DNA from: Massilia sp. UMI-21
Lineage (GTDB): Bacteria; Pseudomonadota; Gammaproteobacteria; Burkholderiales; Burkholderiaceae_D
Reading direction: 5' to 3'
Length of the DNA: 64,000 nt
Assembly (NCBI GenBank): GCA_015277795.1
Contig: CP063848.1
Location: 4,154,001 to 4,218,000, forward strand
The notes below the pieces were generated by a model. It worked only from the letters and a program-made list of their open reading frames with translations. It had not been told where the DNA came from and searched no databases. Below are positions 49,401 to 51,685 of the stretch, one piece after another. The position numbers were made by a program, and so were the translations under genes. How positions within the stretch are numbered: the first letter of the stretch is position 1; each line of letters begins with the position of its first letter.

Positions 49401-49424
49401 GTCGGTGTCCGAACCGCCATCCCC

Positions 49425-49472
49425 GCGCTAAGTCACGCGCTAATTCACGCGCTAATTCACGCGCTCATTCAC
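49425..49472. repeat. Four 12-bp tandem repeats
   Basis: GCGCTAAGTCAC, GCGCTAATTCAC (twice), GCGCTCATTCAC. The last unit contains the stop codon of the hybrid kinase gene on the minus strand; each unit carries a TGA on that strand. Confidence 0.9.
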
Positions 49473-51685
49473 GCGCGCAGGTCCGCACCACGCACCAGGG
49501 CCCGCCCCAGCTCCAGCAGCGCCTTCCCGACCTCCTCCTCCAGCTCCGGATACGACACCGGCTTCACCAGGTGCGCGTCGAAGCCGGCGGCGGCGGACTG
49601 GCGCCTGTCGCTGTCCTGGCCGTAACCCGACAGGGCGATCAGTACCGTGTCCGACAGCTCGGGGGCGCCGCGCACGGCGCAGGCCACGTCGTAGCCGCTC
49701 ATCTTGCCGGGCAGGCCGATGTCGCAGACCACCACGTCGGGCCTGGCCTGGCGGATCAGCTCGAGGCCGGCGGCGCCGTCATACGCCGTGCTCACGGTAT
49801 GGCCGCTGGCGCTGAACAGCAAGGAGAGCATTTCCAGGGCATCCTGGTTGTCGTCGATGGCGACGATGCGCAAGGCATCAAGCCGACCATGCACGCCGCC
49901 CGCGCCGCCGGGGCGGGCGGCCGCGGCGCGGATCGGCAGGCGCACCGTGAAGCGCGCGCCCAGCCCCGGTCCCGCGCTGTGCGCGCTCACCGTCCCGCCA
50001 TGCAGCTCGGTCAAACCCTTGACCAGGGCCAGTCCCAGGCCGAGGCCGCCGCTGCTCCGGTCCAGGCCCTGGGCCGCCTGGATGAAAGGCAGGAACAGCG
50101 TCTCGACCAGTTCCGGCGCCATGCCCGCGCCGTCGTCCTCGACTTCCACCACGGCCTGGGGGCCGTCGGGCCCCGCCTGTTCGCCGACGTGCACGGTGAT
50201 CCGGTTGCCCTGGTGGGTGAATTTCGCCGCATTGTGCAGCAGGTTGCCGACGATCTGCGCCAGCCGTGCGCCGTCGCCGTGGACCCAGAGCGGCGCATTC
50301 GCCACCGCGATGCGCAAGTCGACGCCGTTGGCCTGGACCGGGTCCCGGTAGTCCTCGGCGGTCTGCGTCACCACCCGCACGATGTCGCAGGGCGCGCAGC
50401 GCAGCTCGATCTTGCCGCGCGAAATGCGAGCGACGTCGAGCAGGTCGTCGACCAGGCGCGTGATGTGCGTGACCTGGCGCGCCATCGCCTCGGTGGCCCG
50501 CTTCAAGACCGGATTGCCCGGTTCGAACATCCGGAACAGGTCGACGGCGGCGCGGATCGGCGCCAGCGGGTTGCGCAGTTCGTGCGCCAGGATGGCGATG
50601 AAGTCGTCCTTGTTCCTGTCGGCCTGCCGCAGGGCCAGCTCGGCCTGCTTCTGGAGCGTGATGTCGACCTGTGCCACCACGGCGCCGCGGATGGCGCCGT
50701 GCTCGTCGTGGATGGGACGGGCGGACAGGGCGATGGTCTTGCGGGTGGCGGGCCGGTCGAACGGCGCGATCTCGACGATGTCGTTGTCGACGCTCTCCCC
50801 CTCGAGGGCGCGCGCCAGCGCCCAGTCGTGGGGCTGCAGGGGCTGGCCGTGGCGGGCCTGTCCGTCCGCCCACCAGCCCTGGTAGTGCGCGTACTGTTCC
50901 ACGGTCTCGACCATGGGCAGGTTCAGGCCCCACAGTTCGCGGTTGGCCCGGTTGACCAGGATGATCCTGCCCCTGGTGTCGACCACCCCGATGCCGACCG
51001 GGGTCGCGTCGAGCACGGCGTCGAGCTGGCGCTGGCGCTGTTCGGCGGCTTCGGCAAGCTGGACCGCACGCCGCTCGTTGCTGAGCAGCTCCCTGGCCTG
51101 GCGCTTCTGCTCGGTGACGTCGCGGATTTCGATGATCGTGTACGCCGGCTCGCCGTTCCTGAAGATCGGGCTGGCGGCGCAGGCGACATCGAAAGTCGAG
51201 CCGTCCTTGCGGAAGAACAGGTCCTCGTGTGCGCGCACATCGAAGTTTTCCGGCAACGCGCGGTCGATCGGACAGTCTTCCATCGGATAGGGCCGGCCGT
51301 CCGGATGATGGTGATGGACCAGGTCATGCAGCGGCTGCGACGCGATCTCCTCGGCCGAATAGCCGGTCATGTCGAGCCAGGCCTTGTTGGCATAGATGCA
51401 GTAGCCGCGCCGGTCCATCATCGCGAAGCCCTGGGTCGAATTTTCGGCGATGGTTTTCGCCATCTCGCTGCTGTCCAGCAGGTCTTCTCCCGCTTCCGGC
51501 GATCGCGTCGGCTGCGTGAAGGCGGCGCCGGCATGCTGCTCGAGGGTGGCGGACCATTCGCGGACCTGGTCCAGGGTCACCGAGAATCGCGCGGCGAGTT
51601 CCTCGAGCGGCTGCTCTTGCCGAAGCGCCGCCAGGGCGACGGCCGCCTTGAAGGAAGCAGGATAGTAATGATGATCTGATCGCAT
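49469..51685 (-). CDS. Hybrid histidine kinase with transposase-like N-terminal HTH
   Basis: 738 residues, no membrane helix. Residues ~1-57 (with YYPASFKAAVALAALRQEQ, LEELAARFSVTLDQVREW and ATLEQHAGAAF) match the pattern of the IS3-family OrfA/Transposase_8 helix-turn-helix. Then PAS 1 (~75-200, AMMDRRGYCIYANKAWLDMT), PAS 2 (~220-345, GVVDTRGRIILVNRANREL), HisKA with His368 in AHELRNPL, HATPase (NLLHNAAKF, DDGAGM, GLGLGLALVKGL) and a receiver with Asp655 in VVCDIGLPGKMSG and Lys in HLVKPVSYPEL. The fusion is in frame and the whole protein looks intact. The HTH may bind DNA or mediate self-association; which is unknown. Confidence 0.9.
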   Translation of the reverse strand: MRSDHHYYPASFKAAVALAALRQEQPLEELAARFSVTLDQVREWSATLEQHAGAAFTQPTRSPEAGEDLLDSSEMAKTIAENSTQGFAMMDRRGYCIYANKAWLDMTGYSAEEIASQPLHDLVHHHHPDGRPYPMEDCPIDRALPENFDVRAHEDLFFRKDGSTFDVACAASPIFRNGEPAYTIIEIRDVTEQKRQARELLSNERRAVQLAEAAEQRQRQLDAVLDATPVGIGVVDTRGRIILVNRANRELWGLNLPMVETVEQYAHYQGWWADGQARHGQPLQPHDWALARALEGESVDNDIVEIAPFDRPATRKTIALSARPIHDEHGAIRGAVVAQVDITLQKQAELALRQADRNKDDFIAILAHELRNPLAPIRAAVDLFRMFEPGNPVLKRATEAMARQVTHITRLVDDLLDVARISRGKIELRCAPCDIVRVVTQTAEDYRDPVQANGVDLRIAVANAPLWVHGDGARLAQIVGNLLHNAAKFTHQGNRITVHVGEQAGPDGPQAVVEVEDDGAGMAPELVETLFLPFIQAAQGLDRSSGGLGLGLALVKGLTELHGGTVSAHSAGPGLGARFTVRLPIRAAAARPGGAGGVHGRLDALRIVAIDDNQDALEMLSLLFSASGHTVSTAYDGAAGLELIRQARPDVVVCDIGLPGKMSGYDVACAVRGAPELSDTVLIALSGYGQDSDRRQSAAAGFDAHLVKPVSYPELEEEVGKALLELGRALVRGADLRA

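Follow-up and report, generated by a model that had tools for sequence, protein, structure and literature searches.

An IS3 OrfA-type helix-turn-helix head on a soluble hybrid histidine kinase and its possible use as a regulatory or interaction domain

The open reading frame at 49469-51685 (− strand) of the 64,000-nucleotide stretch of Massilia sp. UMI-21 analysed here (the window) starts with ATG and encodes a 738-residue soluble PAS-PAS-HisKA-HATPase-REC hybrid kinase with a three-helix head of about 57 residues. We found that this head is related to the helix-turn-helix (HTH) domain of IS3 OrfA and that, as the earlier note on this DNA had proposed, it is fused in frame to the kinase; family profile and alignments support this and its retention across genera. 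Because the fusion keeps the reading frame, recurs across genera and seems to be maintained by purifying selection, a domesticated piece of a mobile element is the best reading. The fold has been kept and the contact set of the OrfA type has mostly been lost, so that the head is more likely to serve regulation or interaction than to anchor the kinase to DNA.

Results

Domain layout, predicted structure and translation start

Pfam models matched PAS in two stretches of the kinase (best 77-189 or 81-195), and HisKA, HATPase_c and REC were matched at the residues listed below; these three domains, with the His and Asp acceptors, are those of a hybrid histidine kinase. No transmembrane segment is expected, because the top 19-residue hydropathy average is only 1.22. 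The chain ends about 20 residues past REC. The parts of the protein are as follows.

51515..51685, − strand: head, IS3 OrfA-type three-helix (H+HTH), residues 1-57
51464..51514, − strand: variable linker, residues 58-74; block pLDDT 41-64; 24-59% identity to four relatives
51098..51463, − strand: PAS1, the conserved partner of the head, residues 75-196; 74-84% identity to four relatives
50651..51028, − strand: second PAS region, residues 220-345, with boundaries set by us
50417..50611, − strand: HisKA, residues 359-423; H-box AHELRNPL (H368)
49928..50278, − strand: HATPase_c, residues 470-586; N- and G-box-like strings
49532..49867, − strand: REC, residues 607-718; acceptor D655 (DIGLPG)

The second PAS region is absent from the relative L028, and other stretches take its place in several relatives. 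AlphaFold2 on nine rows gave a block pLDDT of 89-94 for residues 11-50 of the head and of 61, 41 and 64 for residues 51-80 ahead of PAS1 (pTM 0.53 overall), so that the linker of about 17 residues behind the head is modelled with low confidence. Modelling of the head alone, a check suggested earlier, yielded three confident helices at 10-21, 27-33 and 38-57 (mean pLDDT 85.6). The predicted head is a three-helix H+HTH bundle with the same layout as the IS2 binding domain, whose helices are placed at 13-26, 32-38 and 43-58 in the part of PMC3219604 used here. Foldseek with the head model returned 991 matches at E ≤ 10, and it was not used to identify the head because none of them reached E ≤ 0.001.

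All nine intact kinase genes aligned have the head open and in frame, so a translation start after residue 60 in all homologues, which would have spoken against the head, was not seen. An AGGAG lies 5 nt upstream of the ATG at the head start in L004; in the eight other intact genes, that of the window among them, a Shine-Dalgarno match is weak or absent. In L005 and L006 the head can be read only from a TTG start, and L049 has an ATG 29 codons upstream of the alignment cut. M75 of the window, which is not Met in the nine other rows of the alignment, could be an extra start.

When window reading frames of at least 120 aa within 38000-62000 were compared with nine loci, no conserved operon partner was found: the neighbourhood is common to the window and L027, and the eight other loci tested share the kinase alone (E 1e-20). 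The window's genome contains 140 REC matches. A 12-bp tandem repeat of 4.4 copies, CGCGCTAATTCA, at 49424-49476 of the window overlaps the kinase stop codon and sits in a plus-strand frame that, judged by eye, resembles a truncated GNAT-type; a scan of L027 4500-6200 found no such array. A gene for an OpgC-like membrane protein (by eye) follows the kinase at L047:4013-5170 (G076) and at L012:5968-7125 (Noviherbaspirillum soli), a synteny that is not present in the window.

Relationship of the head to IS3 OrfA

The motif on which the OrfA assignment had been based spans residues 12-56 of the kinase. Taken alone, the window head matches the domain libraries weakly, all whole-library matches being below the curated cut-offs. 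The best were IS66_ISRel24_TnpA (E 2.6e-4) and transpos_IS3 (1.8e-3), with HTH_28 at E=0.0025 in Pfam; HTH_Tnp_1 (PF01527), which we take to be the former Transposase_8, gave no match at E ≤ 1. The relatives of the head were therefore collected, and seven heads were scanned at E ≤ 1: HTH_28 matched six (best 8e-5), IS66_ISRel24_TnpA six (best 3.5e-6), transpos_IS3 five (best 6e-4) and HTH_Tnp_1 four (best 1e-4). The Transposase_8-like match expected by the earlier note thus fails for the window head by itself but holds for four of the seven, and it is as a family that the heads belong to the OrfA sequences.

With a profile of ten related heads, the relationship rises above chance, and the original observation stands. 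The head-family profile matches short OrfA-type frames over the head columns strongly, with per-genome E values down to 2.5e-14 in the order sample and 5.0e-15 in the class sample. Profile-to-profile comparison of heads and OrfA gave a probability of 99.4% with 41% identity over 61 columns and E 3.7e-21, a value that is optimistic because the OrfA set was picked by similarity to the head. All ten short frames scanned, the lone L086 among them, match HTH_Tnp_1 and transpos_IS3 at E ≤ 0.01, and an IS66 TnpA model also matches all ten. OrfB-like frames (by eye) lie downstream in L054, L055 and L058, out of seven loci listed. The window's genome itself holds ten PF01527 matches, which are other IS3-type OrfA and to which the heads are weakly similar (best 0.024).

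Searches of the PDB at E 0.001 returned nothing for the head profile (best 0.012, a LysM-type chain) or for the OrfA-set profile (best 0.017, lamin). Matches of the head to beta-lactamases in PDB and NCBIfam were rejected as chance; the best PDB value was E 0.13, a class A model appeared in one of seven heads, and the beta-lactamase models for the window head start at E 0.013.

The resemblance to the N-terminal HTH of IS3 OrfA or OrfAB (PF01527; IS2, IS911), as described in the literature excerpts used, lies in the three-helix H+HTH body and the conserved Trp of helix 3. The same excerpts describe leucine zippers in the OrfA-type proteins of IS911 and IS2, whereas neither a leucine zipper nor an adjoining OrfB frame was found at the head, where the linker and PAS1 come next; the head also differs in having no basic arm and in the replacement of most conserved polar and basic positions.

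A separate observation concerns L086:4175-4522 (+), the same protein as L063, which is a lone OrfA-like protein of 115 aa directly after a ruvB-like gene (by eye). No OrfB was found near it in the 12 kb read. It lacks H37 and K45, groups weakly with the kinase heads and is possibly another domesticated OrfA.

Distribution of head-bearing kinases

Residues 1-115 were matched in three of 62 genomes of the genus sample, the window's own included. A scan of genome contigs, which finds close relatives only because it is driven by exact peptide patterns, gave 13 loci, four of them with the head:

L004: Methylotenera MAG, head-bearing kinase
L005: Noviherbaspirillum humi, head-bearing kinase
L006: Keguizhuia sedimenti, head-bearing kinase
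L012: N. soli, head-bearing gene, frameshifted and shortened

The N. soli gene, at L012:4989-5717, is a decaying copy. The survey of kinases with this head that had been called for was made in the window's own family with a profile of the head plus the start of PAS1 at E ≤ 1e-12. Nine of 392 genomes matched, eight of them with the head (the own genome and the broken N. soli copy included) and one, G204, over PAS only; several of these are the head-bearing genomes named above over again, as their places agree. With the Methylotenera MAG, the head is therefore found in eight family genomes and one MAG. One genome, G083, has two head-bearing kinases (L049 and L005) that differ in their downstream domains, and three of 15 genomes of its genus matched, two with heads.

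In the order sample, 9/399 genomes matched. Two of the matches are same-genus head kinases (own included), six are genomes in which short frames (81-112 aa) cover the head columns, and one is PAS-only. At E ≤ 1e-8, the class sample matched in 19/274; besides the own genome and a false match of the PAS type, there were 17 genomes whose matching frames are short (70-194 aa). These samplings may have misses because the scored candidates per genome were at most 11 (family, order) or 16 (class). Among 120 genomes of the Methylotenera MAG's family, three matched; apart from the MAG, the matches were to short frames. The GC content is 67.2% in the window but 45.8% in the Methylotenera contig stretch and 43.7% in the kinase on it, a difference that argues against simple contamination by a close relative of the window.

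Several candidates were rejected. A 790-aa match in the class sample (L078/L087) has its best stretch at frame residues 356-452, carried by linker and PAS. In a Sphingomonas plasmid match (L101), the part that resembles the head precedes the annotated start and contains stops; with the head alone, the plasmid collection gave no match at E ≤ 1. The matches in G204, G139:C12 and G084:C12 are PAS-only.

Loss of the OrfA signature residues and charge

We compared ten heads with 29 OrfA column by column. The OrfA rows are head-profile matches at E<1e-8 with identical cores merged; four own-genome rows with weaker matches (L021, L022, L025, L026) were excluded, and L063 was dropped because it too lacks the signature residues, the contrast being slightly less clean when it is put on the OrfA side. 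A basic residue at position 15 was found in 0/10 heads and 28/29 OrfA, T26 and H37 were each present in 0/10 and 29/29, Q40 in 5/10 and 28/29, and K/R45 in 4/10 and 29/29. The scaffold residues F12, V16, A17 and F56 are present in 10/10 heads and W44 in 9/10; R33 is invariant, and helix 3 of the window head has R42.

The charge of the arm is −2 to +1 in heads and +1 to +5 in OrfA. The net charge of arm plus HTH, from a script that located the start and the Trp approximately, runs from −4 to 0 in nine kinases and from 0 to +7 (mean 4.8) in the 29 OrfA, the ranges touching because one OrfA row has charge 0. The same measure for own-genome OrfA is +2, +2, +5 and +4 (L020, L023 and L024 without values), and three further own-genome rows are off-frame artefacts. 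With L063 included (30 OrfA), the mean charge was −1.0 for heads and +1.07 for OrfA in the core (p 4e-4) and −1.1 and +1.17 in the helix-3 stretch (p 2e-5), p-values that are indicative because the rows are related. With the basic arm and most of the conserved basic and polar positions of OrfA gone from the heads, the suggestion of OrfA-like DNA binding by the head is not supported.

Mutations described in the part of PMC3219604 used here, which quotes the IS2 residues V41, Q45, L46, W49 and R50, allow a comparison by position. R13H and S44N abolish binding, and with R50H the complex is partly dissociated and transposition is lost, while W49R does not impair binding and W49 is suggested by the authors to have a more global role. 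Head position 45 (Ser in the window) corresponds to R50, position 44 (W44) to W49, and position 39 (Asp in the window) to S44. Loss of T26 or H37 may mean only another specificity, because recognition helices differ among IS3 subgroups.

Such a change would fit a kinase tethered to DNA, whose head binds with a new specificity and makes it a one-protein regulator like ChiS or the Bacteroides hybrid systems. We regard this as unlikely. The head is modelled as an HTH with confident helices, many of the 50 Foldseek matches listed are DNA-binding HTH domains (with 0/991 reaching E 0.001), and the invariant R33 and the K or R at position 45 in four of ten heads point the same way; these residues and R42 of the window are a counterweight to any non-DNA role. 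HTH domains can also bind DNA without a basic arm, which counts against a non-DNA reading. Nevertheless, the net charge of the head is neutral to acidic, the basic arm is absent and the signature residues are lost.

DNA-binding hybrid kinases do exist, as the excerpts of two papers used here describe, but their architecture is different. ChiS of Vibrio cholerae likewise joins a hybrid kinase and an HTH-like domain in one chain, but its domain, for which DNA binding was demonstrated, is a C-terminal helix-sheet-helix variant (PMC8092284), whereas the present head is N-terminal and of the OrfA type and its DNA binding is, judging by its residues, doubtful. The Bacteroides hybrid two-component systems likewise combine sensor kinase, receiver and DNA-binding-type domain in one polypeptide, but they are sensors in the membrane, and the domain that binds DNA is a part of the response regulator fused to them (PMC11253607); our kinase has no predicted membrane segment, and its HTH stands before PAS. 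The kinase thus has no C-terminal or response-regulator-fused DNA-binding domain of these kinds, its HTH being N-terminal, and as far as the sequence tells, charge and residue loss argue against sequence-specific DNA binding as in these systems.

Selection on the head and its union with PAS1

The dN/dS of the head over 50 codons was 0.20 for the window and L027 (64% identity), 0.21 for the window and L028 (54%) and 0.24 for L027 and L028 (48%), well below 1 although rough, because dS is 1.2-2.0, near saturation. For L047-L048, the first 64 residues gave 0.40. Saturated pairs had pN/pS of 0.51 (L005-L006), 0.50 (window-L049) and 0.47 (window-L004), which alone say little. From these comparisons, purifying selection seems to act on the head.

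PAS1 is 76% identical between the window and L004, with HisKA, HATPase and REC at 41-42%, and 74% identical between the window and L049, with the rest at 53-58%. The PAS directly behind the head is of one subtype throughout. Downstream of PAS1 the relatives vary, and L004-L006 and L047-L048 hold other stretches that are GAF-like by reading. With PAS1 well kept and the downstream domains variable, the head plus PAS1 behaves as a unit.

These data also bear on the notion that the head is a passenger, a leftover of an IS insertion that gave the start codon and is functionless itself, which we consider improbable. Apart from the linker, the head is the part that changes fastest relative to L027 (64% identity versus 69-87% for the other domains), headless kinases of the same family have a related PAS1 (L050, L051), and the N. 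soli gene is broken (L012). Against this stand the low dN/dS of 0.20-0.24 in three pairs, the core residues conserved across genera, with the window head 36-62% identical to nine others, and the fact that the head stayed with PAS1 as downstream domains changed.

A tree of heads and OrfA (54 columns) places the heads and L063 on one side (FastTree 0.986), and the branch parting them from the 29 other OrfA has an IQ-TREE bootstrap of 78; because most other branches are weak, few captures are likely and a single one is unproved. Three changes of the head label are required on the PAS1 tree, maybe one gain and two losses, and the headless family members L050-L052 stand among the head kinases. The kinase-core tree is too unsettled to tell one fusion from several. 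An origin outside transposons, from a homeodomain-like HTH sharing ancestry with OrfA and with no capture event, is very improbable: the lone L086, with no OrfB in 12 kb, does group with the heads, on a tree that is short and weakly resolved, and we infer the direction of capture from the distribution only, but the non-kinase head matches listed for the order and the class consist of short frames (70-194 aa), and the ten such frames scanned all match both OrfA models.

Discussion

On balance, we think that the head was probably exapted as a regulatory or interaction domain rather than as a DNA anchor, and we favour this over the less likely DNA-tethered kinase. In a lineage of beta-proteobacteria (Oxalobacteraceae), a PAS sensor unit would have captured an IS3 OrfA HTH at its N-terminal end, and the HTH would have been retained for its useful three-helix body, no longer being mainly a DNA anchor. 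On a short flexible tether before PAS1, it would act as an interaction or autoregulatory domain that packs on PAS1, on its own dimer partner, on the kinase core or on some other protein; this packing may bias kinase activity or assembly. The soluble kinase is predicted to autophosphorylate at H368 and to pass the phosphate to its own receiver D655 and then to an unlinked partner. A counterweight to the interaction-domain reading is that no conserved neighbour gene suggests a partner.

A bolder version, which we put forward tentatively, is that a transposon DNA-binding domain has ceased to read DNA and become a signalling domain. The OrfA surface around the conserved Trp, which normally serves the rest of the transposase, would be reused to control PAS and kinase activity. 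If true, a transposon domain would have been exapted in bacteria for a two-component system, with the HTH fold parted from DNA binding.

Capture of a transposon HTH and DNA-binding hybrid kinases are each already known separately. The excerpt of PMC12062965 used here describes Tc1/Mariner HTH domains captured in eukaryotic F-box genes, which, like the present case, join a transposon HTH to an unrelated host protein; here the host is bacterial, the transposon family is another one and the partner is a two-component kinase. As the earlier note had supposed, no kinase with an OrfA-type head is described among the open-access literature matches listed.

The kinase provides a bacterial case of a transposon-type HTH in a two-component sensor, for which several relatives are available and the changes are clear at the level of residues. 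It offers a testable model for the entry of mobile-element domains into signalling proteins and for the role that they may take on after their typical DNA-contact residues have been lost.
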